A stretch of 21,259 bases of DNA from a virus. This document shows positions 1 to 16,902 of the stretch, piece by piece (within the stretch, counting starts at the first letter, position 1; every line of letters starts with the position of its first letter). The stretch is taken from IMG/VR virus record IMGVR_UViG_3300035701_000344, positions 1 through 21,259 of that record; one strand, 5' to 3'. Under the pieces are notes generated by a model. It was not told the DNA's origin. It saw only the letters and a list, made by a program, of their open reading frames with translations, and searched no databases. The position numbers and the translations under genes are program-made.

Positions 1-509
1 CCATAGACCCGCGCTCCCTATCCGCCAAAGACCGCCGCCGTTACATCGCGTGGCGCATCCTGGGCTCGCCGGGCAAGGGCATTCAGAAGCAGCTCGCCGA
101 AGAGTGCGGATGCTCCGAAGCCTCAATCAGCGCGGACATGGACTCTATCGAGTACATGACCGAAGCGAGCGAGGTCTTCCGGGCGTTCGTCAAGAAGCAG
201 CTCTTACCGAAAGCGATCACGAATATATCAAAGGCGATGGAGCGCGAATCGAAGATGGAGAAGGGCAAGCCGGAAGTCAGCCTGGAAATGGTCAAGGAGT
301 TCGGGCACCTGTTCATCCCGCCCCCGACTCAGCGCTATGAGGACGTGACCCCCGTCCCACCCGGCGATAGCCTTGACACGGAGATCGGTGCCCAGGTGGA
401 TGCGGTCCTGGCTCACATGATCGAGAAGTCCGGGAACGGGCAGGGCGGTGACGGCAACGGCGATATCGACATAGGTGAAATCGACAGCGGGGAGCCTCAT
501 GCCGATTGA
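1..509 (+). CDS. terS: Terminase small subunit, 5' end cut off by the window
   Basis: The frame is open from the left edge (first full codon at position 3) and shows 168 residues. An ATG at 138 exists, but the clearest domain lies before it, so the true start is outside the window. Visible residues 28-50 (IQKQLAEECGCSEASIS and onward) form a helix-turn-helix, as expected of a small terminase subunit that recognises the packaging site on phage DNA and loads the large subunit. The middle is charged and helical; the C-terminus is a Gly/Asp-rich tail (GNGQGGDGNGDIDIG), probably flexible. The position upstream of the large terminase supports the call, although four other genes intervene. It overlaps the next gene by 11 bases. 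A general HTH regulator is the alternative. Confidence 0.6.
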   Translation, partial: IDPRSLSAKDRRRYIAWRILGSPGKGIQKQLAEECGCSEASISADMDSIEYMTEASEVFRAFVKKQLLPKAITNISKAMERESKMEKGKPEVSLEMVKEFGHLFIPPPTQRYEDVTPVPPGDSLDTEIGAQVDAVLAHMIEKSGNGQGGDGNGDIDIGEIDSGEPHAD

Positions 510-2043
510 CATTCTGAAGGCCGATTTCCACTTTCCCCGCCGCGTCTACGTTGTGGGTTCCGGCTTATCAGCCCGCGAGAACGCCCGCCTCATTCCTCCT
601 GACGCTTTCATAATCGCCTGCAACCGCGCTATCGAGCTTCCAATCAAGGCCACAATCTGGCTCTGCCACGACGTGAACCTGCAAAAGAATGCCTGGTTTA
701 ATGACCGGATGGGCGCGATATCGACCGCCTTAAAAAAACTCGACATCAAGAATATCCGGGCGGGGGGAAACACTGTCCCGGTTTTCTCCACGGAGCTTCA
801 GAGAATATTCCCCGTCGTGCGCGTCGTGTTTCAATCATGCGGCGACCTTTACAAGACGCTTGACCCCGCGCCCGACTACCTTTCGCCCGCCGCGACAGTG
901 ACGGGACAGGCTATCCAGCTCGCGTTCATTCTCGGATCGAAAGAGATCATCCTTGTCGGTTGTGACATGCGCGGCGGATACTTCACCGGCGAGAAAGCCT
1001 ATCCAGGCGACTGGCCCTGCAAGGCTGAATTCGACTGGCTCGTGAACTATCTCAGAACGGAGCACCGCATCGATATCCAGCGCATCGAGGATATGCACGT
1101 GACGGACCCCGAACAAATAACAATGGATTCGGAAGCCAACCCTATATGCAATCCGCCCGCCGATCTGGGGCCAGTGAAGAGTTTGACCGTGTTCTGGACG
1201 GCGGACGGGATAAAAGTCAAGCCGGTCGTGTCTCGCGGGTCCAAGTCAGACATAACCCCGCTTTCCGATGCGACCGGCTTACCCTCTATCGGTTACCTGT
1301 GCATGACCTTCGACCCCATCGACATGATGAACGCCGTGCATGACTTCATGTGTCAGGACTGGCCCATCGACCGAAAGAAACTCTATCTGCTCCGACAGAG
1401 AAATGGCGCGGGTCAGTTCCCGCCCCGGATCGTGAACAATCTCGGCTTGCAGATCGTCGAGATCGATGTCGATTTCTATCCCTGGCCTGAGATGTGGACG
1501 GGCAAGTTCATGGCTTACCTGGAGGCTTGCGACTGTGAATACACACTCTGGTTTGATGAGGACGACCGGTATCCGCCTGATTACACGCGACTTGCAATTC
1601 TACCTATCCTTGCTGGCTTGGCCGAGCTTTCGTGGTCGTGGGATTGCATCATCGCAGAACACGATGTGGGCACCGGCACCTTTCAATTTCGGGATGACTG
1701 GTATCGATCTCCTGTCGGCCAAATGGTCATAAAGACGGACCTTTTGCGCGAGTACCGAGACCGGATATGGCGGCGATTGTATGAGGGCGATTTCCATTCG
1801 CCGAAGCGGATCGCCGGAGTCCCTTACGGCGGCGCTCAGGATGATCAACTCAGACAAATGATTCAGCGCGACATCCCGGATATTCCTCACCATCGGGCGA
1901 AGCGAGTCTACTTCGTGACCAGCCTGGCGAACTCAGCGCAACTTAGAGCAAGGGGCAATGCGCTCGATTACCGGGGCAAGCGGGGAACCGCTGAGGAAGC
2001 GGAAGTACAACCGACGCGATTTGATTTCCCGAGGAGTGGATAA
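499..2043 (+). CDS. Two-domain sugar transferase: DUF115/MptE-like plus GT-A-like glycosyltransferase
   Basis: A 514-residue protein. I start it at ATG 499, preceded by GGGGAG four bases away, rather than at GTG 475. Residues 15-200 look like the DUF115/MptE-like superfamily, which includes flagellin glycosylation factors and resembles GT42 sialyltransferases: VYVVGSGLSA at 16-25, IIACNRA at 38-44, TVTGQAIQLA at 133-142 and ILVGCDMRGGYF at 151-162. Residues 265-475 look like a separate GT-A-type glycosyltransferase: YLCMTFD at 266-272, then YTLWFDEDDRYPPDY at 348-362, where the acidic run resembles the metal- and nucleotide-sugar-binding DxD motif. Likely role: attaching or building a sugar, on the virion or on a host glycan; the substrate cannot be read. 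It overlaps the terminase small subunit gene and abuts a methyltransferase gene. The domain calls are moderate; the joint function is inference. Confidence 0.6.
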   Translation: MPIDILKADFHFPRRVYVVGSGLSARENARLIPPDAFIIACNRAIELPIKATIWLCHDVNLQKNAWFNDRMGAISTALKKLDIKNIRAGGNTVPVFSTELQRIFPVVRVVFQSCGDLYKTLDPAPDYLSPAATVTGQAIQLAFILGSKEIILVGCDMRGGYFTGEKAYPGDWPCKAEFDWLVNYLRTEHRIDIQRIEDMHVTDPEQITMDSEANPICNPPADLGPVKSLTVFWTADGIKVKPVVSRGSKSDITPLSDATGLPSIGYLCMTFDPIDMMNAVHDFMCQDWPIDRKKLYLLRQRNGAGQFPPRIVNNLGLQIVEIDVDFYPWPEMWTGKFMAYLEACDCEYTLWFDEDDRYPPDYTRLAILPILAGLAELSWSWDCIIAEHDVGTGTFQFRDDWYRSPVGQMVIKTDLLREYRDRIWRRLYEGDFHSPKRIAGVPYGGAQDDQLRQMIQRDIPDIPHHRAKRVYFVTSLANSAQLRARGNALDYRGKRGTAEEAEVQPTRFDFPRSG

Positions 2044-2655
2044 GTGGCTCACCCCCAGATGCGCGAATTCCTTGAACGAGTGAAGCGGGATCATCCCGAA
2101 CACTTCTGGCGCGTCCGGGTTCTCGATTGTGGCTCCCTCGATATCAACGGTTGCAATCGCGATCTCTGGAATCTGGAATCGGGCTATACCGGCATCGACC
2201 TGGGTCCGGGCAAGAACGTGAACATGGTCATGGCTATCGAGGATGCGGACTGGCGAGAGGGTCATTTCCATTGCATCATCTCAACGGAGTGTTTTGAGCA
2301 TAATCCTAACTGGCGTTCGGGTCTCTTGAACATGGTTCGGATGCTCAGGCCGGGCGGCTTGCTAATCGTGACGTGTGCGACCATCGGGCGCGATCCGCAT
2401 GGCGTTCCTGAAAACAGCCCCTATGACTCCCCATACACGCTCGACAACGGCTACTATAAGAATCTCACGGAACAGGATATCCGGGCGGTTATCAATGCGG
2501 ATGATTTCGAGCACTTTGAGTTCGCGGTTAACGAGGAGAGCCATGACCTGTACTTCCATGCGGTCAAGCGCGGCGATCTCGTTCACGGTTGCACATGCGA
2601 TGACCTGAACGGAAAGAACAAGGAGCAAAAGCAATGGATGAATCTGGAAAAGTGA
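2044..2655 (+). CDS. Class I SAM-dependent methyltransferase
   Basis: A 203-residue protein starting at GTG 2044, directly after the upstream TAA, with GAGGAG (2031-2036) seven bases before it. The Rossmann methyltransferase motifs run in order: motif I VLDCGSLDING at 26-36, the acidic strand end YTGIDL at 48-53, FHCIISTECFEH at 75-86, and the post-motif LRPGGLLIVTC at 101-111. This is the pattern of small-molecule, sugar or lipid methyltransferases; no DNA-methylase catalytic motif (DPPY or PCQ type) is present. The Cys-containing motif I (DCGS rather than DxGxG) is slightly degenerate. It sits between two DUF115-like genes, so O-methylation of a sugar made by the neighbours is the natural reading, but the substrate is inferred from context only. 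The C-terminus carries CTC and Lys-rich residues and overlaps the next gene by 22 bases. Confidence 0.75.
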   Translation: MAHPQMREFLERVKRDHPEHFWRVRVLDCGSLDINGCNRDLWNLESGYTGIDLGPGKNVNMVMAIEDADWREGHFHCIISTECFEHNPNWRSGLLNMVRMLRPGGLLIVTCATIGRDPHGVPENSPYDSPYTLDNGYYKNLTEQDIRAVINADDFEHFEFAVNEESHDLYFHAVKRGDLVHGCTCDDLNGKNKEQKQWMNLEK

Positions 2656-3305
2656 CCCTATATCCCGACGTGCCAAAGCCGAACCGATACGGCTTGCCGG
2701 ATGCGGCGCATATTCCCAATGCCGGTCACCTTTCATCCGTGCCGGTGACGATTATCGCACCCGGCCCCAAAGGGAGACCTCATTGGGAAGAAAAGGAAGG
2801 CTTAGTGATTGCCGTCAATTCCGCAATAACAATCGATGTCGATCCTGTAATGTGGTTTATTGCGGATGGGAATGCGCCGGGGCTGACATGGTTCAAGAGG
2901 GGCATGGATGCTTCAATGAAATCGACTATACGCGTCTTCTCTGAGGCTATCCATCAGCGCTCCGATTACAAGGGTGACTACACATTCTGGCTTGCCCCGT
3001 CTCACTTCGACACCGACGCAGACATGGTTTCTTTTATGCAGGAACCTTACCGCGTCGATCCCGATTTCTTCCGACCCACCGAGACTGTCACCGGGATCGC
3101 GATTGATTTTGCCGTTCGCTACGGCGCGAAGCAGATCAATCTTATCGGGGTGGACATGGAGGGCGGATACTTCGATGATCCGCCGGGCCTGAACCGCGAT
3201 GTTATCAACTCATACAACCGCGACTGCTTGCAGAAAGAGATCGACTATTTCAAGGCGCGTGGCATTGAGTTCCGCGCCCTATCACCGACACGATTGGATG
3301 TGTGA
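2634..3305 (+). CDS. DUF115/MptE-like protein, paralogue of the N-terminal half of the first cassette gene
   Basis: A 223-residue protein starting at ATG 2634, with AAGGAG (2620-2625) eight bases upstream and inside the end of the methyltransferase gene. The key block is ETVTGIAIDFA at 150-160 followed by INLIGVDMEGGYF at 168-180. It matches the 499-2043 product almost position for position (TVTGxAIxxA, xxLxGxDMxGGYF). The N-terminal VTIIAPGPKGR at 38-48 is the counterpart of VVGSGLSA but lacks the Ser-containing loop, so the nucleotide-binding end may differ or be inactive. The protein is shorter and has no GT-A domain. A sugar-transfer or accessory role in the same pathway is plausible. No signal peptide or membrane segment is seen. 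Confidence 0.55.
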   Translation: MDESGKVTLYPDVPKPNRYGLPDAAHIPNAGHLSSVPVTIIAPGPKGRPHWEEKEGLVIAVNSAITIDVDPVMWFIADGNAPGLTWFKRGMDASMKSTIRVFSEAIHQRSDYKGDYTFWLAPSHFDTDADMVSFMQEPYRVDPDFFRPTETVTGIAIDFAVRYGAKQINLIGVDMEGGYFDDPPGLNRDVINSYNRDCLQKEIDYFKARGIEFRALSPTRLDV

Positions 3306-3527: not shown

Positions 3528-4925
3528 ATGACAATCGTCCGCGATGAAATAGTCTCTCAAGTCCGCCAGCGCGTGATTCGCAACCGCATCCTGAAGCGGC
3601 TCGGCCTCGTTCCTCACGCTGGGCAGCAACGGGTCTTGGACGCTATCGACCGGGGCTGTAAGCGCATCGGCGTCAATGCAGGGACACGAGGCGGCAAGAG
3701 CGTTATCACTCAGGCCCCGATTCTCACCCAGGGCACATTCGGCCCGGACGGAAAACAACCGCTCCGCGTGATCCCGATTATTGCCCCTTACGCCGAACTC
3801 ACTGACAAGGTTTTCCGAATGGTCTCCAAAGCGATCATGCGTGACAACATTTACCGGACTTTCATTCCCGACTTTAACCCCCGCCGGCAGGTCAAATACA
3901 GCGAACGGGAGCGCTATATCGAAATGCCCTGGGAAGCGCGGATCATCGGATCGACCGCCGATAATCCCGCCTCGATACTCGGCGAAGGCTGGCCGTTCGT
4001 GCTCTGCGATGAGTTTGCCCGCTTCAAGCCGGGGGTCTTTGAGGAGTATGTAGAGCGCGGCCTTACCGACGTGAACGGATGTGCTCTCTTAATCACAACG
4101 CCACACGGAATGAATCACTGGCACGATATCTTCATGGACTGGACACGACAGGCCGCGATGGACCCGACCTATTACACGACTTGCTGGACCTCTTACGAAA
4201 ACCCCTATGTCAGCCATGAAGCGATAGACAAAATCCGTGAAGAGTACGAGCGGCGTGGATTGATGGACGTATTTCGGATGAACTTCCTCGCTGAGTTCAC
4301 GGCCTTGCAGGGCGCTATCTACGGAATGTTCCGACCCTCGCGTGGCTCCGATCCCTGGCACGTCGGGGATGTTGAATTTGAGCCGGAGCTTCCCGTCTAT
4401 CTGGGGATCGACTGGGGCGAGAATTTCCGCTGCCTCTTCGGGCAAGTCGCCGAATGGGACTGTCTGAACGTGATCGACGAAATCGCGATAGTCGAGAACG
4501 CCCCTAACCGCCAGCTCGATGCAGTCATGCAGAAGCTGGAGCACTACGCGAAGCTGGCCGGGATAGATCAACCCGGCGAACTGATCCAAATGGCCTATTG
4601 TGATCCGAGCGGTAAGCAGATGAAGACGCACTTCCAGCGGGCGGGTATCTCCGTATTCTGGACTTCACCGGAGGAGAAGAGGACCATAAACGACGTCGAG
4701 GACGGTATCACAGCCGTGCAGTGGCGATTCTCAGAGCCTGACCGACCAATGCTTCGGATCGACCGTTCCCGGTGCCCTGACCTCATTGAGCGCGTTCCTG
4801 CGTATGAGCGGAACTCCGTAACGACCTCGCCGATCAAGCTCAATGACCACAGCGTAGATGCCCTCCGGTATCTTGTTGTGGGATGTTTTGGGCTTGTCGC
4901 GGAACCTGCCCGGATGTTTTTTTAA
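3528..4925 (+). CDS. terL: Terminase large subunit (packaging ATPase and nuclease)
   Basis: A 465-residue protein, within the usual range for the family. It is the motor that pumps DNA into the prohead through the portal and cuts the concatemer. The ATPase half shows a Walker A-like AGTRGGKS at 51-58, Walker B FVLCDE at 157-162 and a coupling motif LLITTPHG at 187-194. The RNase H-like nuclease half shows its three acidic positions: YLGIDWGE (Asp295), AYCDPSG (Asp359) and NDHSVDALRY (Asp440/Asp444). All expected catalytic residues are present, so the enzyme looks intact. It follows a structured leader that may limit translation. The gene ends in a T-rich stretch before the promoter candidate at 4937. 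Start ATG 3528 has GAGG nine bases upstream. Confidence 0.95.
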   Translation: MTIVRDEIVSQVRQRVIRNRILKRLGLVPHAGQQRVLDAIDRGCKRIGVNAGTRGGKSVITQAPILTQGTFGPDGKQPLRVIPIIAPYAELTDKVFRMVSKAIMRDNIYRTFIPDFNPRRQVKYSERERYIEMPWEARIIGSTADNPASILGEGWPFVLCDEFARFKPGVFEEYVERGLTDVNGCALLITTPHGMNHWHDIFMDWTRQAAMDPTYYTTCWTSYENPYVSHEAIDKIREEYERRGLMDVFRMNFLAEFTALQGAIYGMFRPSRGSDPWHVGDVEFEPELPVYLGIDWGENFRCLFGQVAEWDCLNVIDEIAIVENAPNRQLDAVMQKLEHYAKLAGIDQPGELIQMAYCDPSGKQMKTHFQRAGISVFWTSPEEKRTINDVEDGITAVQWRFSEPDRPMLRIDRSRCPDLIERVPAYERNSVTTSPIKLNDHSVDALRYLVVGCFGLVAEPARMFF

Positions 4926-4992: not shown

Positions 4993-7104
4993 ATGAACAT
5001 TTTGGGGCAGGCGTGGCAGCGACTTCTCAATCCTCTTGAGAGGCGCATCGCTATCAACTGGACCAACTTTCCCGACGGCCTCAATTCATCCGCGACAACG
5101 AGCTGGAAGTACCTCGAATATGCCAGCCTGGGCTTTCGACAGAACCCGGTCGTGTTTGCGTGCATCGATGAAATATGCCGGGCGGCCAGCGCGATTCGGA
5201 TAAAGGTCGATGTCGAGGGCGAGGAGATCATAGAGGAGGACGCATCTCCGAACCTAAAGCCCCTCTTTCGACTTCTCACGCGTCCGAACAAATACACGTC
5301 GATGCCTGCGTTCATTTCCCGCTGGGCGCTTTACATGCAGCTCGCGGGGGTGAGCTACGTCCAGGGCTTCGGGATCGGCACGCGAGAGGGCTTCAACGGC
5401 GAGCGTGTGGGGAAGACCGCGCCGGAGATGCGGTTGATCCGCCCCGACAAACTCAGCATCGAGACCAACAACGGCCAGATCACCGGCTTCAAATATTCCG
5501 GAACCGGGGATACCATCAAGCCTGAGGACATTTGGTACACGATCTATCCGGACCCGCTGGAAGAGTTCGCGGGCATGGCTCCGATGCGGGCGGCGGCTGA
5601 AACCATCTCATCTCATTCCAACGCGATAAGTTGGAATCGGAACATCCTGCAGAAAGGCGGCCTCCCGGTGCTCGTGATGATTATCAAGGGTATTCTGGGG
5701 CTGAGCGATAAAAAGTATGAAGAATATCAGGAGCGCTATCGGACTCAATTCGGCGGGGCCAAGAATGCCGGGACGCCGATGATCCTGGGCGGCGACGGCG
5801 TTGATGTCAAGACGCTATCGAGTACCGCTCAGGAACTGGACTGGCTCGGCGGCAAGCAGGACATGATGCGGGACATCTGCGCTTGCTTCGGCGTCCCCTC
5901 AAAGCTCCTCGGGGATCCGACTTCCTCGACGTTCAACAATGTCATCGAGGCCCGACGCTCGTTCTACATCGAGAAGATCATCCCGGACATGCGGCAATTC
6001 GTCACTGAACTTACCGAATGGATAATGCCGCGCTACGGGCAGGAGAACGCGGACATCGATATCGACTATTCGCATATCGACGCGCTGAAGGACGATGAGA
6101 CCGCGAAGGTCAATCGACTTGTAGCCGCCGATTGGAAAAGCGTTAATGAAAAACGAGAGGACGATGGGCTTGAGCCAAAAGAGGGCGAGCAATATGATGA
6201 ACCCACGATTTTCATTAAATCCGCTCAACCAGCACTCGGAATGATATCGGGCGCGTCCGCGTCCGCTTTCTCACGCCGCTCCGAACTCCTTCCCCATGTC
6301 AACGAGAAATCCTTGTACCGCACGGAAGAAGAGCGGGCGATAGCCTGGAAGCGCGTTGACCGCCGGAAGCTCCGATGGGAAGCGATGATCGAGAAATCCA
6401 GCCGCGCCCTCCTCGATAAATCCGCTCACATAGTTGCCGCCGCGCTCTCTGAACATGCCGCATGGCCCTACGAAGAAATCCACGCTATCGCGATGGATGC
6501 CGCATCGGATGCGCTTAATCGGGCGGACATGGCGAAGCAAATCCATGATGAATTTACCACGATAGAATCCGCGCTGATTCTCGAATTCGGAGAAGCGGCG
6601 CTCGCGGACCTGAAAGCAAAGGGCATCCTCTTTGATATCGAGAATCCGAACATAGTTGACTTCATCGCGCAAGGTCTCGCGGATCGCTCGCGCCTAATAA
6701 ACGAAACCACGGCAGATGAACTCCAGCGGATCATCAACGCCGGGGTCGAGAGCGGAGAGGGCGCGGCCAAGATTCGAGACCGCATTCTGACGGAATATCC
6801 GGACATCGCAAGGGGCCGTGCGATGAACATCGCCAGGACTGAGGTTAACATGGCCTCCAACACCGCGACCCTTGAAGCCTACAAGCAGATGGGGGTTGAG
6901 AGGAAGGAATGGCTATCGGCTCGCGATGCGCGGGTCCGTGAGACGCATCAGGCGCTCGATGGGCAGGTCGTGGGGTTGATGGACGATTTCGTATCACCAT
7001 CCGGTGCTCGCGGATATGCGCCTGGCAACCTCAATGATCCCGCCGAAGACTGCCAGTGCCGCTGTGTGATGACTCCTCTACAAGCAGGTGACAAAAAGAT
7101 ATGA
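4993..7104 (+). CDS. Portal protein fused to a MuF/SPP1 gp7-type minor head domain
   Basis: A 703-residue protein. Residues 1-400 are an HK97-type portal, the dodecameric DNA channel at the capsid vertex: NPVVFACIDEIC at 51-62, MRLIRPDKLSI at 146-156, NGQITGFKY at 160-168, then the stem and clip region with ICACFGVPSKLLGD at 295-308 and SSTFNNVIEARRSFY at 311-325. Residues 440-697 match the MuF/SPP1 gp7 head-morphogenesis domain: NIARTEVNMASNTA at 612-625, EWLSARDARVRETHQALDG at 639-657, and the terminal CQCRC at 687-691. In most phages these are two genes; here one frame runs through both without a stop. ATG 4993 has no recognisable Shine-Dalgarno sequence and is preceded at once by TAG, so initiation may depend on the short promoter-derived leader. 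It overlaps the protease gene by four bases. Confidence 0.9.
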   Translation: MNILGQAWQRLLNPLERRIAINWTNFPDGLNSSATTSWKYLEYASLGFRQNPVVFACIDEICRAASAIRIKVDVEGEEIIEEDASPNLKPLFRLLTRPNKYTSMPAFISRWALYMQLAGVSYVQGFGIGTREGFNGERVGKTAPEMRLIRPDKLSIETNNGQITGFKYSGTGDTIKPEDIWYTIYPDPLEEFAGMAPMRAAAETISSHSNAISWNRNILQKGGLPVLVMIIKGILGLSDKKYEEYQERYRTQFGGAKNAGTPMILGGDGVDVKTLSSTAQELDWLGGKQDMMRDICACFGVPSKLLGDPTSSTFNNVIEARRSFYIEKIIPDMRQFVTELTEWIMPRYGQENADIDIDYSHIDALKDDETAKVNRLVAADWKSVNEKREDDGLEPKEGEQYDEPTIFIKSAQPALGMISGASASAFSRRSELLPHVNEKSLYRTEEERAIAWKRVDRRKLRWEAMIEKSSRALLDKSAHIVAAALSEHAAWPYEEIHAIAMDAASDALNRADMAKQIHDEFTTIESALILEFGEAALADLKAKGILFDIENPNIVDFIAQGLADRSRLINETTADELQRIINAGVESGEGAAKIRDRILTEYPDIARGRAMNIARTEVNMASNTATLEAYKQMGVERKEWLSARDARVRETHQALDGQVVGLMDDFVSPSGARGYAPGNLNDPAEDCQCRCVMTPLQAGDKKI

Positions 7105-7997
7105 GGCACAAGGAAATCAGGGTGTTTCGATTTTCGGAAGTTCGGACCGAAGGCGATGCGGGCACATTCGCAGGCTATGCCTCGATGTTCAACGTTTTGA
7201 TCCCCGGCTACAATGAGCGCGTCATGCCGGGAGCTTTCACGCGGACGCTGAAAGCGACGGGCGGGAAAGTACCTATCCTGCATAATCACAACACCGATGA
7301 ATGTATAGGTATCAACATCGACGCGCATGAAGACAACAAGGGACTGTGGATCAAAGGCGAACTGAATCTGCTGTCTCAGCGGGCGCATGAAGATTATGCG
7401 CTCATGCAGTTATTTGAGAAACATTCCCGCGCAATCGGACTCTCAATCGGGTTCTCCGCAGTGAAAGAGGCGATGGTTGATGAGGGCGGGAAAAGTGGGA
7501 AGATTCGGCAACTCATAGAAGTTGCGCTACTTGAAAACAGCATCACGCCGTTCCCGGCGAATCCGAAAGCTTTTATCTCGGAGGTCTACTCGCAAATGGA
7601 AACTCGCATTTGGGATGATACCGAAAACGAAATCCGATACCGCATCCGTGAGCCGGAGGAATTCGATCCCGATAGCTTCCGGCGGATTACCATCCAGGAA
7701 GAGAAACCGCGCGTCTTCGCGATAGCGGGCAAACTGAAAGGCGAAGACACGATGACTATACAGGCCCTGCGCTTTCCAAAAGAGGATGACTGGACGATGG
7801 AGAGCGCAAAGGCATGGGTCAAAGAACATCCTGATGTCGGTCATTCCGCATCGGTTGATGATACGCACTGGTCGATTATTCCAGAGCTTGACGGGGCACT
7901 CCGCAAAGGACTCGCCATGAAGGTAGACCGACCGGACTCTCTCCACCGCGTCTACAAGGCTCTCGATGGATTCAATGCGGCACTACGACAGAAATAA
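7101..7997 (+). CDS. HK97-type prohead maturation protease with C-terminal extension
   Basis: A 298-residue protein starting at ATG 7101 in an ATGA overlap with the portal-MuF gene. Residues 1-165 are the U35 prohead protease: FAGYASMFN at 23-31, the catalytic His in PILHNHN (His61 or His63), the catalytic Ser in GLSIGFS (Ser115), and the acidic strand IEVALLENSITPFPANP at 139-155. It cleaves the capsid delta domain during head maturation. The family is often near 200 residues, so roughly 130 are additional. This tail contains LRFPKEDDWTMESAKAWVKEH (split here as LRFPKEDDW at 223-231 and TMESAKAWVKEH at 232-243), a phage-associated motif, and may act as a scaffold or targeting module. An internal ATG at 7752 could start a separate scaffold-like product, but its ribosome-binding site is poor. 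The capsid gene follows directly. Confidence 0.9.
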   Translation: MRHKEIRVFRFSEVRTEGDAGTFAGYASMFNVLIPGYNERVMPGAFTRTLKATGGKVPILHNHNTDECIGINIDAHEDNKGLWIKGELNLLSQRAHEDYALMQLFEKHSRAIGLSIGFSAVKEAMVDEGGKSGKIRQLIEVALLENSITPFPANPKAFISEVYSQMETRIWDDTENEIRYRIREPEEFDPDSFRRITIQEEKPRVFAIAGKLKGEDTMTIQALRFPKEDDWTMESAKAWVKEHPDVGHSASVDDTHWSIIPELDGALRKGLAMKVDRPDSLHRVYKALDGFNAALRQK

Positions 7998-8008: not shown

Positions 8009-9271
8009 ATGGACCCGGAACTTGAAAAGAAGTTGAATGAGGCGACGGGCGCGGTTCTGGAATTCCGAGGCCGGATCGACAAGATCGAGGCTTCGACAGG
8101 CCACGTCCCCGCCGATATCAAGGGGGCCGTTGATACCGCGCTCACTGCGTTTGCCACGACCTGCGCGACCAAGCAGGATGTCGAGGCTCGCGACAAGCGG
8201 CTCGATGAGATCGAGAAGCGCTTTGAAATCCTGAAGAACATTCAGGGCGAGAGCGGCATCAAGCCGAAGGTACACCGCGAGGCCATTCGGGATTTCATCC
8301 GCTCACACGGCGGACGCATTTCCCCGATGCCGAAGTTTGAGGCATTCGCTGCGAGCGATGAATATCGCACGTACCAGAACTCTCTGTTCGCGATTGAGGA
8401 AACCCGGACGCTCACTGAAGGCACGGCTGCCGACGGCGGCTTGTTCCTTGACCCGGAACTGGATACGGAAATCCTCAAGAATTACGTCGCGATTGACCCC
8501 ATCCGGTCGGTCGCGGACGTTCGCACCATCGCGGGCATGGAGATCAAGGGCTATCGCAGGACCGGCACTCCGACCGCTTACCACGGCAATGAGATGGCCG
8601 GGAGCACTGCGAGTCAGGCTGCATGGGCTGAGTACAAAATCCCCGTGCATCCCCTCTATGTTATCACTCAGGTATCCGAGGATTTGCTTTCGGATGTGCG
8701 TTTCATCGAGAGCGAGATCGTCGCCGATGCCGGAGAAGCGTTCGGCTACACTGAGGGCGTTGACTTCCTCTCCGGAAACAGCGTCGATAAGGCAGCCGGC
8801 ATTTTCTTCAATCACGGCACGGATGCCACGAAGTACCCCGCCGATGTGACCGGCGTAGGCACGGCGGTAATCTCACCCGATGATATCGCCACCATGTACA
8901 CCACGCTTCCCGTTCCCTATCGCCCGAACTGCACATGGGGCTTCAACTCGACGGTTCTCAAGCGCATCTGCATTCTCAAAGAGGCTACCACGAATGCCTA
9001 CATCTGGCAGCCCGGCCTTCAGGCTGGCCCGCCGGATCGCATCTATGGGCGACCTTTCATCATCTGCGAGAGCATGACCGACCAGGGTAACGATTACTAT
9101 CCGATCATGCTCGGGGACTTCAAAAAGGGCTACCGGATTGCGGATCGCTCCGGTATCGTTCTCCTGCGCGACGTGTTCACCGGGTATCCCGGCGTCTATT
9201 TTAAGATGCGAAAGCGCGTCGGTGGCCAGGTCATCAAGCCTGAAGCCATCAAGATTCTTTTGACCACCTGA
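8009..9271 (+). CDS. Major capsid protein, HK97 fold
   Basis: A 420-residue protein. Residues 1-80 are charged and helical with heptad character (ARDKRLDEIEKRFEILKNI at 60-78), the delta domain that scaffolds prohead assembly and is removed by the upstream protease. The capsid core opens with the family hallmark LTEGTAADGGLFLDPEL at 135-151, followed by IRSVADVRTIAG, the E-loop region with AAWAEYKIPVHPLYVITQVS, and the A-domain end with YPGVYFKMRKRVGG. Length, motif order and position after protease and portal all agree. The cleavage point is probably between residues 80 and 135 but cannot be placed from sequence alone. It is followed by two small virion-like genes. Confidence 0.93.
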   Translation: MDPELEKKLNEATGAVLEFRGRIDKIEASTGHVPADIKGAVDTALTAFATTCATKQDVEARDKRLDEIEKRFEILKNIQGESGIKPKVHREAIRDFIRSHGGRISPMPKFEAFAASDEYRTYQNSLFAIEETRTLTEGTAADGGLFLDPELDTEILKNYVAIDPIRSVADVRTIAGMEIKGYRRTGTPTAYHGNEMAGSTASQAAWAEYKIPVHPLYVITQVSEDLLSDVRFIESEIVADAGEAFGYTEGVDFLSGNSVDKAAGIFFNHGTDATKYPADVTGVGTAVISPDDIATMYTTLPVPYRPNCTWGFNSTVLKRICILKEATTNAYIWQPGLQAGPPDRIYGRPFIICESMTDQGNDYYPIMLGDFKKGYRIADRSGIVLLRDVFTGYPGVYFKMRKRVGGQVIKPEAIKILLTT

Positions 9272-9293: not shown

Positions 9294-9755
9294 ATGAATA
9301 TCGACAACTCAGACTCATTCGACATCTGTCAGGTGCTCGCCCCGGTCTCAAAGGTGAGCAACGCAACTGACTTCTACTCCTCGCCCTGTTCAATGGTGGG
9401 GTACAATTCCGCGACTGCTGTGATCGGTCTCGGAGCTGCGACATCCGATACCCTGTCGGGTGCGCTCTACTGGACTTTCAAACTCCAGGAAAGCGATACC
9501 TACAATTCGGGTTTCACAGACGTCGCGGCGGGCGAGATCACGAACTTGGCTGCGAACTCCGTCGTAGTTGACGCGAACGGCAAACTCGCGACAGCCTACA
9601 AGATCGGCTACAAGGGCGACGCGAAGTACATTCGCGTGGCCTGCGTGGTCACCGGCAACCATGTTTACGGGAACCTGATGGACATGTACATCGTTCTCGG
9701 AAACAAGCGCATGGGTGGCGGCTCTGACACAGCCATTGCCGTTGCGACAGCTTAG
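9294..9755 (+). CDS. Putative head decoration or minor virion protein, copy 1
   Basis: A 153-residue, beta-rich, Cys-poor protein with no catalytic motif. GGAGGA (9278-9283) lies ten bases before ATG 9294. Its core is TLSGALYWTFKLQESDT at 53-69, FTDVAAGEI at 74-82, YKIGYKGDAKYIRVACVV at 102-119, TGNH at 120-123 and VLGNKR at 134-139. The same pattern recurs in the next gene, so the two are paralogues. Proteins of this size directly after the capsid gene are often capsid-surface decoration or stabilising proteins; that is inference from position. A Gly-rich C-terminus (MGGGSD) follows the domain. It ends with the only TAG stop used by a full gene here. Confidence 0.55.
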   Translation: MNIDNSDSFDICQVLAPVSKVSNATDFYSSPCSMVGYNSATAVIGLGAATSDTLSGALYWTFKLQESDTYNSGFTDVAAGEITNLAANSVVVDANGKLATAYKIGYKGDAKYIRVACVVTGNHVYGNLMDMYIVLGNKRMGGGSDTAIAVATA

Positions 9756-9786
9756 GCCACTTGAAACCTCCTCTTAAATGCGGAAA

Positions 9787-9821
9787 GGGGGGCGGGAACT
9801 CACACTCCAATCCCGCCCCCC
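9787..9821 (+). other. Strong GC-rich hairpin between the paired virion genes
   Basis: Six G, C, GGG, A (9787-9797) pairs perfectly with T, CCC, G, six C (9811-9821): an 11-bp stem, ten of the pairs G:C, around a 13-base loop. No T run follows, so it is not a normal intrinsic terminator on the + strand. It fills most of the 86-base gap and could block 3' exonucleases, mark an RNA processing point, or lower downstream expression relative to the capsid gene. Confidence 0.6.
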
Positions 9822-9841
9822 CGTGATTGAACGGTGACATC

Positions 9842-10279
9842 ATGGACGATATTTCGGGACGCATAACCTATCAACTGCTTACCGTCCCGGCGATCAAGAC
9901 CGGAACGGTTACGTCGGATGCCTGCAACGTCCAGGGCTACGAGGGTGCGGCCTTTTGCGCGATATTCGGGAACTCCAGCGATGTACTTTCCGGGACGCTT
10001 TATTGGTCCGGAAAGCTCACCGAATGCGATACTGAGGGCGGCTCGTATACCGATGTCGCAACCGAGGACATCCAGATCGCGGCTACTAACTCATTCGCGA
10101 TGGTCGATGCGCCCACGGAAGATCAGGCTTGTTTCTGGATCGGATACGGGGGGTCGAAGAAATACGTCAAGGTCGTGATAACCGCGACAGGCACTCATGC
10201 GGTCGGAACGATTATCTCGATTGTGGCGTTGCTTGGGATGCCGCGAACTCAGACTGAGGGAGGCGCGGTGAATCCATGA
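9842..10279 (+). CDS. Putative head decoration or minor virion protein, copy 2
   Basis: A 145-residue protein. I choose ATG 9842 (GGTGA a few bases upstream) over the TTG at 9827. It repeats the architecture of the preceding gene: VLSGTLYWSGKLTECDT at 48-64, YTDVATEDI at 69-77, WIGYGGSKKYVKVVITA at 99-115, TGTH at 116-119 and LLGMPR at 130-135. The N-terminal 35 residues and the C-terminal tail differ. The pair most simply arose by an old duplication, and the divergence suggests two distinct sites on the virion. No enzymatic motif is present. It overlaps the next gene by four bases (ATGA). Confidence 0.55.
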   Translation: MDDISGRITYQLLTVPAIKTGTVTSDACNVQGYEGAAFCAIFGNSSDVLSGTLYWSGKLTECDTEGGSYTDVATEDIQIAATNSFAMVDAPTEDQACFWIGYGGSKKYVKVVITATGTHAVGTIISIVALLGMPRTQTEGGAVNP

Positions 10280-13303: not shown

Positions 13304-13777
13304 ATGACAGAGAACGCAGATCGATTTCAGGAGCAGTGGATACCGTCGCCGAGCGACCCGACGGTTGAATTTCTCATTACACCGCTGAAGGTTCGACAAC
13401 GGACGTTCATTCTTACCAATAACATCATGCCAGCCGGATTTGATGCGGATGGTACGCCTCAATTTGCGACGGAAGTAGCAGGTGAAGCCATCGATATCGT
13501 CCGACTCTCCCTCAAAGGGGTTCGACGGAATGGGGAAGCGATCAAGCTGGACTTTTCACGCGAGAAGATCGGCGGGCGAGTCATGTCCGTTGTTTCCGAC
13601 TTGGGGCTGGAAACTCTTCAGGATTTCTGGATTTACGAAATCCGAAATGCCGTCCGGGATATAGGACTGCTTTCGGATAGTGATAAGACCGAAATAAAAA
13701 ATACGCTGGACTCGCCTTCGGAGACTTCGAGTGTGCCGGAGACGAGTCCCGATGTGCCTGTGGCTCCGGAGAGTTGA
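13304..13777 (+). CDS. Tail assembly chaperone, short form (G-like)
   Basis: A 157-residue protein from ATG 13304 with GGAAGG (13291-13296) seven bases upstream. The N-terminal part (VEFLITPLKVRQRTFI at 21-36) and helical middle (IDIVRLSLKGVRRNG, GLETLQDFWIYEIRNAVRDIG) fit a tail assembly chaperone, which wraps the tape measure while tube subunits polymerise. The last 24 residues after the frameshift site (TLDSPSETSSVPETSPD and onward) are Ser/Pro-rich and disordered, as expected when the zero-frame tail carries little structure. Position directly before the tape measure, plus the frameshift signal, decides the call. Confidence 0.75.
   Translation: MTENADRFQEQWIPSPSDPTVEFLITPLKVRQRTFILTNNIMPAGFDADGTPQFATEVAGEAIDIVRLSLKGVRRNGEAIKLDFSREKIGGRVMSVVSDLGLETLQDFWIYEIRNAVRDIGLLSDSDKTEIKNTLDSPSETSSVPETSPDVPVAPES
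13696..13749 (+). promoter_or_regulatory. Programmed -1 frameshift signal: slippery heptamer and downstream stem
   Basis: The heptamer A AAA AAT (13696-13702) is in the correct register for a -1 slip (zero-frame codons AAA AAT). After a five-base spacer, GGACTCG (13708-13714) can pair perfectly with CGAGTCC (13743-13749), a 7-bp stem 5' boundary at the distance typical of stimulatory structures. The -1 frame has a TAA at 13684-13686 just before the heptamer and is then open to 14025. Together these are the hallmarks of the G/GT frameshift of siphovirus tail chaperones. Confidence 0.8.
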
Positions 13778-14025
13778 TAATCGACCGGAAGATTATCAAC
13801 GATGAAAGTATTCCGATCTTCGCGCATGGATGTCCCTTTAAGTCTGTAAGTCCCCTAATTTGGATGCTGGTCGATTATTATGTTCATTACAAGGCCGGGC
13901 ATCTGAAAGATTCCGGAGGCGTTGACGATCAGGAAGTCTGGTACATGGACGCGATGGAAATCTTCACAACTGAAATGAGTCTCGCTGAGAAGGGGCAGTT
14001 CGAGCGAAAACATGGTAAGTCGTAA
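13702..14025 (+). CDS. Tail assembly chaperone extension (T-like), made by -1 frameshift
   Basis: This is the -1 frame after the slippery site. It adds 107 residues to the first 133 of the G-like protein for a predicted 240-residue GT-like fusion. The join region is Gly/Cys-rich (YAGLAFGDFECAGDESRCAC), then the core IIDRKIINDESIPIFAHG and SPLIWMLVDYYVHYKAGHL, a helix QEVWYMDAMEIFTTEM, and the end FERKHGKS. A TTG at 13774 overlaps the G-like stop (TTGA) and could alternatively start a separate 83-residue protein, but it has no ribosome-binding site as good as those of neighbouring genes. In known phages the fusion binds tape measure and tube protein. It overlaps the tape measure gene by 14 bases. 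Confidence 0.75.
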   Translation, partial: YAGLAFGDFECAGDESRCACGSGELIIDRKIINDESIPIFAHGCPFKSVSPLIWMLVDYYVHYKAGHLKDSGGVDDQEVWYMDAMEIFTTEMSLAEKGQFERKHGKS

Positions 14026-15793
14026 AGAACTAGAAGTCTTGATTACCGCTCGGGATGAATTGAGCGCGGTCATCGATAAGACCGGAAATGCTGCTGCTGC
14101 TGCCGGTGCTAAGTTCTCAGCCTCCGCAACAGAAATAATGGCATGGGGCCAGAAAGTAAATCGCGTTGGTGCCGCTCTGACCCAAAACGTAACGTTCCCG
14201 ATAGTGGGGATTGGTACGGCGGCGGTCAAGATGTCGTTCGATATCCTCAAAAGTAAGGATGCGATAGATAGGATGTCGAATGAGGGTAAGCTAAAGATGG
14301 CTGAACTGTGGCAGGCCACAAAGGATACTACCGATGCTTATCTGAATATGAAAATCGTAATCGCTGAGGCTGTGGCTCCTGCCATTAGTGATTTAATCAA
14401 TAATCAACTCAATCCACTTATAGACAGGCTTACGCAGATAATCGGTAAATGGGGCGAACAAAGCGAGAGCATGAAGGAATCGCAAATTATAACGCTTGCT
14501 CTTGTCGCCACAGCGGGTCCAGTCATTCAATGGAGCGCGTCTATCGTGACCGCTGCCGCTGCCGCTACAATCGCATTTGGGGCCGTCGGTGCGGCAGCGA
14601 CTCTTGCAATGTTTGCCATTGTTGGATTAGTTGCCGCATGGATTTATCAGAAAACGGTCATGGCTAACTTCGATCCTACGGCAGTCTCGGGACCGGGACC
14701 GGAAGGGGCTGCTCTCAGAGCCGCAGTAGGCAGTATGGCGGGCGGGACAGGGATGCCGAGTGAGAGCCGAACGGCGGATGCAATCGCAAAATCCCAGGCC
14801 GATCTCGCCGCTGCAAATATGCTTGCCTATCTGAATAGTTTCAATAGGGACGGAACTGTAGGACGCGGCGGCGGGGGCGGCGGGGGAGTACCCGTCATAT
14901 CCGGCGCGGGAATCGGTCCCGGAAGATGGGGTGCGGAATTAGATGCCGCTCGCGCCACGGCTTATGTCGAGGCACATAAATTTGTAGAAGGCGCAATCTC
15001 GGAACTTTGGAGCAATACCTTTGTTCTGCCCAGAAGTGCCACAATGGGAGGCCAGGCATTTGATTTCATGCGGGGACCATGGGCAAAGCCCTGGACCGCA
15101 TCAAGGGAACAATCCTTTCAAACGTGGTGGAATAGTGTTAGGTCAATAAATGACTTTGATATGGGCGCGCCTAGTACTAAACTGCAACAATATGATCTTC
15201 GTGGATATTGGAGTGCAAACCAACCTGGTTTGGGCGTATACGGCACTTGGCAAGAGGAACATCAACAATTCCGACTGCCTGATGAATGGAAGCGCCCTGG
15301 GTCTCCAGAGGATGTAGATAGCATTCATGCTCTCTTATATAGGCCAGATTCATATTACGAACTACCCAAATATCGAGCGCCTGGATGGGGTTATATTCCC
15401 GGTGAAGGCGGTTTTGGATACAAAAAAGGACCAGGTAAGGGAGCCGTCCCCATCTGGCAGCGCAATGACTGGCTCTGGGGCGCGGGTATCCAAGCGGCGA
15501 ACGTCGCGACGGGACAGGCGGACTGGACCTCGATGCTGCCGATAGTCGGGAGTGCGTTCGGCCCGGTCGGTGCGGCAGTCGGCGGCGTTCTCGCATCGAT
15601 ATTCGGAGGCAAGCAGAAGCAGCGCGGGAATGACCCGGCTAATCCGCTCTACGTCAAAGACATCAACACCGGTAGCCTCATTACCGAACTGATGAATCTA
15701 ACTAAGAGCCTTCTGGCGCGGACCGGGTCCGGCGTGATAGACCGGCTCGCATCCGATCTGAGAATGCAGACCGCATCGAGGGGGCTGGCATGA
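14012..15793 (+). CDS. Tail tape measure protein, short and mosaic
   Basis: A 593-residue protein; tape measures are often longer. The start is typical: RKELEVLITARDELSAVID at 4-22, then KVNRVGAALTQNVTFPIVGIG at 48-68 (given as KVNRVGAALTQNV and TFPIVGIG), the usual entry to a TP901-type domain, but that domain is missing and the chain passes to MAELWQATKDTTDAYL and a helical stretch with NPLIDRLTQIIGKWGE. Hydrophobic residues 170-212 could insert in the host membrane during ejection. After a Gly7 linker (286-292) the sequence becomes Trp-rich and holds YDLRGYW (394-400) and LPDEWKRP (422-429), a motif pair known to me from other phage structural proteins. The C-terminus has a second hydrophobic Ala/Gly stretch. 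DNA of the middle part is about 46 percent GC against about 69 percent just after. Confidence 0.75.
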   Translation: MVSRKELEVLITARDELSAVIDKTGNAAAAAGAKFSASATEIMAWGQKVNRVGAALTQNVTFPIVGIGTAAVKMSFDILKSKDAIDRMSNEGKLKMAELWQATKDTTDAYLNMKIVIAEAVAPAISDLINNQLNPLIDRLTQIIGKWGEQSESMKESQIITLALVATAGPVIQWSASIVTAAAAATIAFGAVGAAATLAMFAIVGLVAAWIYQKTVMANFDPTAVSGPGPEGAALRAAVGSMAGGTGMPSESRTADAIAKSQADLAAANMLAYLNSFNRDGTVGRGGGGGGGVPVISGAGIGPGRWGAELDAARATAYVEAHKFVEGAISELWSNTFVLPRSATMGGQAFDFMRGPWAKPWTASREQSFQTWWNSVRSINDFDMGAPSTKLQQYDLRGYWSANQPGLGVYGTWQEEHQQFRLPDEWKRPGSPEDVDSIHALLYRPDSYYELPKYRAPGWGYIPGEGGFGYKKGPGKGAVPIWQRNDWLWGAGIQAANVATGQADWTSMLPIVGSAFGPVGAAVGGVLASIFGGKQKQRGNDPANPLYVKDINTGSLITELMNLTKSLLARTGSGVIDRLASDLRMQTASRGLA

Positions 15794-16902
15794 TACTCGG
15801 AACCGATCAGACACGACTGACACAGATCGCCTTCCTGGCGCACTCCGAGGCGACGGCGAGTTACTGCCGATTTTATAACGGCGCAGACTGGACTAATCTT
15901 GACTCGAATATGCTGATGCTAGATGGGTCGAACTTCCCGCTCTGGACAGACTCGAATGATGTCTTTTATGTGGGTGCCGCTGCCGTGTTTGCATTCGTGG
16001 GCTTTGGATGTAAAACGGCCGGTGTAGGATACGGCACTTTCAGATTTCAATATTCGGCATTAGGTGGTCCCTACAATATCGTCGAAGTCAGTCAGGTCAA
16101 CAAAACATTCAAAGTCGCGACCGATCTTACATCGAAATTTACTGCCAACTCGCAATTTGAGATTCACGGTTCAACCGGAAATGATGGTGGTTATACGTGC
16201 GGCATCGATGCTACATATTCGGCTCCGAATACGACTATAACCGTACTCGAAACAATAAATAGTTCAGTAGCTGATGGGCATGTCGAACAGGACAGCATTT
16301 GGACAAAGATCACTGCGGTTCATAATTCAACGGCAGGATTTACTCAGTCAGGATATATCGGCTGGGTTATTGCCAGTGACTGGACGCTACGAACAGTTAA
16401 TGGTAAATCCGCTTATTGGATACGGACATCTCAAAGCGCCGTTGCTCCCACCACTGTAGCCGTCGCCTACAACCTGCTCCGCTCGGTCATCTTATATGCG
16501 CCGCTCCATATGCTCACCGGGCGCACGACTCCCGCGATAGGACGGGACATCAACGGCGACACATTCAAACGCGATATTCCGCAGCGGGGCGCGGACAGGC
16601 TTGTTATCGAGGGGACACAGATCGCTTTCGGATCGCTTCCATCAATGCCGCAGGCTCATGCGGTTTGGGACTGGTGGCACTATTCAACACGACTGTACAT
16701 CGAGAGCGGAGCGCACACCGTTCCCATAGGCACGACCGCATTCAGCACTGACGCATACGCGCACGCTTTCAAGGGCCGGATTATCACGCTACCGCCGGGA
16801 CTATCGACCCCGAACGCGATGGATATCCCGGACCGCTTCCAGATCGAGATAGAGGTTGACGAAATCGAAACACTCACCGGACGGCTGGGGGTAACGGTGT
16901 GA
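15790..16902 (+). CDS. Distal-tail-like protein with an inserted beta domain
   Basis: A 370-residue protein from ATG 15790 (ATGA overlap) with GAGGGGG (15778-15784) five bases upstream. The N-terminal 95 residues and 168-225 read as one beta module split in two: FAFVGFGCKTAGVGYGTFRF, then WTKITAVHNSTAGFTQSG with WVIASDWTLRTVNGKSAYWIR at 192-212 (given as WVIASDWTLR and TVNGKSAYWIR). Between them, 100-167 is a separate domain around FEIHGSTGNDGGYTC (123-137) and ITVLETINSSVADGHV (150-165), a recurrent phage beta domain. Residues 230-370 form a GC-richer C-terminal domain with WDWWHYSTRLYIES. Position between tape measure and hub suggests a distal tail or tail-tip role; the exact part is uncertain. 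Confidence 0.5.
   Translation: MILGTDQTRLTQIAFLAHSEATASYCRFYNGADWTNLDSNMLMLDGSNFPLWTDSNDVFYVGAAAVFAFVGFGCKTAGVGYGTFRFQYSALGGPYNIVEVSQVNKTFKVATDLTSKFTANSQFEIHGSTGNDGGYTCGIDATYSAPNTTITVLETINSSVADGHVEQDSIWTKITAVHNSTAGFTQSGYIGWVIASDWTLRTVNGKSAYWIRTSQSAVAPTTVAVAYNLLRSVILYAPLHMLTGRTTPAIGRDINGDTFKRDIPQRGADRLVIEGTQIAFGSLPSMPQAHAVWDWWHYSTRLYIESGAHTVPIGTTAFSTDAYAHAFKGRIITLPPGLSTPNAMDIPDRFQIEIEVDEIETLTGRLGVTV

Follow-up and report, generated by a model that had tools for sequence, protein, structure and literature searches.

One of the closest described parallels to the locus reported here is the mt3 motif of mycobacteriophage TM4, a small motif within the tape measure protein that is common to unrelated proteins and dispensable for viability (PMC1796659). 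The module described below shares the first two of these properties. It differs in two respects: mt3 has host proteins among its relatives and acts as a peptidoglycan hydrolase motif, whereas no enzyme was recognised in the module and the relatives found for it are phage or prophage-like proteins. A second parallel is found in the LPD domains of polyvalent proteins, which are also small and uncharacterised, occur alone or fused to many activities, and belong to proteins thought to be injected (PMC5512222, available passages). One module carrier, L010, resembles polyvalent proteins in combining PBECR3 with a 2'-5' RNA ligase-like domain. In contrast to the LPD domains, the module has no Pfam match in ten member proteins; its motif is not mentioned in the available passages of the polyvalent protein paper, from which the term "tape measure" is altogether absent.

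Crassviruses have been described as carrying cargo in capsid and tail (PMC10172136), and PJPA_041 of the crass-like phage ProJPt-Bp1 is among the proteins given as structural in PMC5478533. A 2026 paper on contractile systems describes effectors that are related to tape measures and whose domains can be exchanged, in line with mt3 as a precedent for accessory parts in tape measures (PMC13277306). A large survey of mosaicism in phage proteins, in the passages available, reports frequent tape measure signals, with recent genuine cases unconfirmed (PMC10684548). Here, one module is common to tape measures and unrelated proteins, and its transfer into the tape measure examined below was not necessarily recent.

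The tape measure gene of the window

The window, by which we mean the whole stretch of DNA analysed, is the complete stretch of an IMG/VR virus record (21,259 bases). Its gene order is terminase (3528-4925), portal with a MuF domain (4993-7104), prohead protease (7101-7997) and capsid (8009-9271), with the tail genes next. Ahead of the terminase, at 475-3305, lie three genes, a methyltransferase flanked by two with MptE-like matches below cut-off; the latter two cross-match the corresponding block of a relative like partial paralogues. The capsid gene is followed, at 9294-10279, by a pair of small neighbouring genes (153 and 150 aa) that have the appearance of tandem paralogues and, in translated comparison, cross-match the relative's pair.

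Gene order and a single PHROG match that is weak but specific (phrog_4704, tail length tape measure protein; E 3e-6, residues 16-77 only) mark the gene at 14012-15793 as the predicted tape measure gene, whose product is the putative ruler of tail length. Gene order and collinearity with the relative, L004, fit a position between tail tube or chaperone genes and distal tail genes, but the three genes upstream match no family. Pfam tape measure families did not match the protein, which as a whole gave no match against viral contigs and only short weak matches against phage records. No hydrolase family of Pfam, PHROGs or NCBIfam matched it, nor did those of Pfam or PHROGs match the segment alone, and no lysozyme-like match was found in the protein with Pfam or PHROGs. 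The features of the gene are collected in Table 1.

Table 1. Features of the predicted tape measure gene and its module; positions refer to the window.
Feature	Position	Strand	Residues	Basis or remark
Tape measure protein gene	14012..15793	+	593 aa	phrog_4704 match; collinear with relative L004
Poly-glycine linker	14867..14887	+	286-292	Relative's tape measure has one at residues 379-388
Low-GC stretch containing module	15058..15442	+		GC and GC3 scans
Module core	15074..15334	+	355-441	tblastn/BLASTP span against L153 and L155; HMM match; second tool 15089-15298
E-x-x-F-x-x-W element, predicted helix	15107..15127	+	366-372	Alignments A2 and A5; window model
YDLRGYW motif	15191..15211	+	394-400	Translation, HMM match
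PDEWKRP motif	15278..15298	+	423-429	Translation, HMM match
GSPEDVDSIHA, possible degenerate HPTFSxES box	15299..15331	+		Significant pairwise match to L153 places it against GHPTFSVDSIYA
C-terminal tape measure part common to relative	15464..15790	+	485-593	Alignment with relative

A module family and its divergent copy in the window

A preliminary description of this DNA had noted the motifs YDLRGYW and PDEWKRP within the gene, both of which are present in its translation, and had associated the pair with separate phage structural proteins. The pair was widened to a seed DNA pattern, YDxRGxW followed by PDx[FY]KxP, which matched 27 viral contig stretches representing 19 distinct segments. 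All 27 matches also contain an HPTFSxES-type box, which is not part of the pattern, and an E..[FY]..W element lies about 20 residues upstream in the aligned distinct members; the E and W of E-x-x-F-x-x-W are invariant in alignments A2 and A5. The family architecture is E..F..W - YDxRGxW - PDxxKxP - HPTFSxES, with a W downstream.

With the A2 profile (16 members), 523 candidate stretches were obtained from viral contigs, 510 of which were confirmed by tblastn; the best 80 of these 510 were taken on. The loci collected hold 106 module-bearing open frames, 76 of them distinct. Counted as stop-to-stop open frames, some of which are cut by contig ends, 41 of the distinct members are shorter than 300 aa, 19 measure 300-999 aa and 16 are at least 1000 aa. 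In the 35 larger frames the module starts in the first third (21), the middle (9) or the last third (5). Bacterial genome contigs yielded 19 candidates, of which four were confirmed, from Sphingomonas, Gastranaerophilales, Nitrospira and Verrucomicrobia. Of 50,697 phage records, three were found with the family consensus, which correspond to two phages, Tunturiibacter phage Tunturi_3 (gp25) and crass-like ProJPt-Bp1; other members as queries against phage records gave either nothing or one phage. A match to uncultured phage MedDCM-OCT-S45-C18 was set aside as a member after the family HMM gave no confirmation.

No curated family was found for the module in Pfam, PHROGs or NCBIfam. Among the best stretches listed per match, none from PHROGs or Pfam lay over the module in the members scanned, and several members, L014, L039 and L047 among them, had no PHROG match at the limits used. 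NCBIfam returned below-cut-off matches only, one of which, to EreB (E 0.031), overlaps part of the L035 module. Searching full-text literature for the motif strings revealed no phage protein by title among the matches listed.

As judged by profile and pairwise comparison, the window segment is homologous to this family and represents a divergent copy of the module, and the motif pair is not a matter of chance. When 1370 reading frames were scored with the 76-member family HMM, the window tape measure came first at 35.7 bits (E 5.8e-10), and the runner-up had 6.0 bits. An overlapping profile, run in a second tool, matched the window at E 1e-10. When the window module was used in tblastn, 6 of 582 candidates were confirmed at E 2e-8 to 9e-6, values which are relative to those candidates; in the best pair, PGSPEDVDSIHA of the window is aligned to PGHPTFSVDSIYA and the match spans the PTFS box. 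Against phage records, a 73-residue segment gave a single tblastn match, at E 8. Nineteen columns are conserved in 90% or more of 27 members, and the window copy keeps 14 of these 19; it has lost a T, L, D, F and S, of which the F and S belong to the HPTFSxES box in the alignment.

A resemblance due solely to Trp/Tyr/Pro-rich composition was weighed against these results. The seed pattern was derived from the finding, so that the motif columns were selected. Because the seeds had been chosen by motifs taken from the finding itself, residues 394-429 were held fixed in a shuffle test, in which the remainder was shuffled 3000 times and scored with three profiles. The real score was reached by 1, 1 and 3 of 3000 upstream shuffles, by 999, 1234 and 408 of the downstream ones, and by 4, 6 and 3 when both sides were shuffled. 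The upstream half therefore constitutes independent evidence, and the downstream half, including the possible degenerate box, gains nothing from the profile test. Masking both motifs left 4.7 bits, at the correct place. The downstream result and this small residue are what a chance resemblance has in its favor; against it, the E..F..W element lies outside the pattern and yet stands in register with YDxRG and PDxxKxP, upstream shuffles matched the real score as rarely as once in 3000, and the best tblastn match continues through the PTFS box. We consider chance to be nearly excluded.

Modeling with AlphaFold gave the Sphingomonas member (46 sequences) a pLDDT of 86.2, with helices followed by a strand pair. 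The window segment gave a weak model (pLDDT 63.5), whose helices cover E..F..W and YDLRGYW and follow the order seen in that member. Sequence searches of PDB yielded either no match or matches with an E of 0.4 at best; by fold, the family model found nothing at E <=0.001, and no Z of at least 5 was seen among 712 chains, the rows covering mostly model residues 106-155. These failed searches do not show the fold to be new. A viral structure library gave five matches at E <=0.001: ProJPt-Bp1, whose membership is confirmed, and four more that are presumed members.

Base composition and the close relative

The preliminary description regarded the segment as inserted and its AT-richness as a sign of acquisition. 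Its hand count of about 46 against about 69 percent GC agrees with computation, which gives 46.0% at 15121-15420 and 69.2% at 15481-15600, the whole window being at 55.4%. The plain GC of the segment is not unusual, since three further window stretches, at 13764-14089, 14123-14554 and 15894-16455, likewise have a 300-base GC of <=46%. The last of these lies within the gene after the tape measure gene and contains the window's minimum for 300-base GC, 43.3%.

GC3 is 0.34 over tape measure residues 361-465. Across the window's genes, 18 of 4188 slices of 105 codons have a GC3 of <=0.343, every one of them starting at 15092-15143, and the lowest slice elsewhere, in the gene at 15790-16902, has 0.36; of all slices scanned in the window's genes, those poorest in GC3 thus lie in the segment. 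Its codon-usage score is the 11th lowest of the 4188 slices, and the eight lowest listed start at 15056-15131, in a test that was tilted by excluding the tape measure gene itself from the reference.

These values cannot be taken to show acquisition, because the tape measure interior of the relative lacks the module and is as AT-rich or more so. This relative, L004 (IMGVR_UViG_3300009285_001314), has a terminase 77% and a capsid 65% identical to those of the window, and its tail block is collinear. Across residues 199-463 of its tape measure (L004:15778-17559), 100-codon slices have a GC3 of 0.34-0.39, and in 105-codon slices of the gene GC3 falls to 0.286, whereas the lowest 105-codon slice in six other genes examined in its stretch has 0.52. 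Both phages thus have in common a tape measure interior of low GC, and low GC as proof of acquisition was ruled out.

The word "inserted" fares no better. Both tape measures are 593 aa long; a few N-terminal residues can be aligned and the C-terminal parts (residues 485-593) align clearly, whereas the body between, from about residue 25 to 484, does not. This points to replacement or divergence and not to a demonstrated insertion. The equal length despite unalignable bodies could reflect a length constraint or chance. The C-terminal part also weakly resembles, in a Gly/Ala-rich stretch, a gene beside the stand-alone module of L064 (E 0.021; BLASTP E 3e-4).

The overlapping profile found no copy of the module in the record of the relative, whose 36,533 bases may be incomplete. 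A capsid-profile search for more close relatives produced 36 loci. L004, at 65%, was the one close locus, and the rest reached <=38%; the module was found in none of the 36, and L004 alone had the tape measure C-terminus. Gain and loss are indistinguishable with a single close relative. The preliminary description is therefore confirmed as an observation and partly supported as an interpretation: the motif does belong to a module family, and the module is absent from the relative's record, but the arguments from GC and from insertion are not supported. Neither of the two findings named as speaking against it was made: the segment does not occur in all relatives with native codon use, and the motif does match other phage proteins.

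The window copy might also be a relic, decaying in a permissive, fast-evolving tape measure body and doing nothing specific. The loss of the conserved T, L, D, F and S, the weak model, and a relative whose body is unalignable at equal total length are all consistent with decay; the 14 columns that have been kept, and the 1, 1 and 3 of 3000 upstream shuffles that reach the real score, argue against it. On balance we regard a relic as improbable.

Carriers of the module and its possible role

By their sequence matches, the carriers include stand-alone proteins, multidomain virion or polyvalent proteins, and tape measures. Two clear module-bearing tape measures come from other contigs. L022 has a PhageMin_Tail match above cut-off, and in L086 (with L023, on one contig) the module, at 1151-1240, has an endolysin-like stretch on one side and the C-terminal tape measure part on the other. 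L088, with an SLT domain, and L016 were rejected as clear cases and are kept as possible ones, their best listed tape measure matches falling in lysozyme-like stretches. L012 combines the module with NlpC/P60. The polyvalent-type frame of L010 (8320-13014; 1565 aa) runs off the locus end and has the module near its start, together with a PBECR3 nuclease domain. PJPA_041 of ProJPt-Bp1 carries the module by family HMM and by predicted structure, and gp60 of crassvirus cr130_1, probably the library entry to judge by length and position, matches the module by predicted structure; gp60 is a 385-aa protein encoded right after terminase and portal. Neither of these two is a tape measure, unlike the carrier in the window. 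The association with separate phage structural proteins made in the preliminary description thus holds, in that carriers of the module include separate phage proteins as well as virion proteins.

Stand-alone copies gave 97 neighbour references. The ten scanned first were chosen mainly for portal- or terminase-like size, and seven of them matched portal or head-tail adaptor (L067, L112 from Sphingomonas asaccharolytica, L031 and, two genes away, L062), head closure (L106) or terminase (L092, L079). A further 53 neighbours were mixed: among the 25 of 61 families listed, terminase, head and tail proteins were accompanied by DNA polymerase, RecT, integrase and HNH.

Could the module be an envelope-acting part, binding for example peptidoglycan or membrane and aiding virion lysozymes in the manner of mycobacteriophage tape measure accessory motifs? 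Lysozyme-, NlpC/P60- or SLT-like matches occur in the same chain in L012, L016, L022 (Pfam, below cut-off), L086 and L088; the library name of the cr130_1 protein refers to a glucosaminidase-like domain; and the TM4 motif has peptidoglycan-hydrolysing activity (PMC1796659). However, 41 of the 76 distinct members have open frames below 300 aa, L010 has no lysozyme match, the window tape measure shows no hydrolase, and co-occurrence with hydrolases carries little weight because these are common in virion proteins. We hold this explanation to be unlikely.

The occurrence of the module in separate small proteins and in other large phage proteins makes it look like a reusable part that is swapped among phages. 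It may be a virion-borne interaction module, one that would make a contact in assembly or ejection. Our preferred reading, to which we give an even chance, is that a divergent portable module sits in a fast-changing tape measure body, between the glycine linker and the conserved C-terminus, and is a small docking domain for proteins traveling in the head-tail conduit of the virion. At the cell envelope it may help the tape measure to dock or to open a channel. Tape measure C-termini generally face the tail tip. That of the window probably remains matched to the distal tail proteins. These too are conserved and, unlike the tape measure body, can be aligned between window and relative; the conserved C-terminus and these alignable proteins fit such matching, which would place the adjoining module near the exit and let it leave the tube early. 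We count against docking the mixed neighbour scan, the 5 of 19 columns lost, the weak window model, the lack of downstream profile support and the lack of a lysozyme-like match.

A more far-reaching version, which we consider rather doubtful, is that the module is an undescribed, widespread phage domain and serves as a portable address tag which loads proteins into the head-tail conduit and brings them out first at ejection, and that it was acquired by a body swap at exactly the kept length; the tape measure of the window would then be among the few clear cases of domain mosaicism in such proteins. If the module is such a loading or ejection tag, the virion cargo of uncultured phages could be predicted from their sequences, and a testable, swappable part would be at hand in tape measures.
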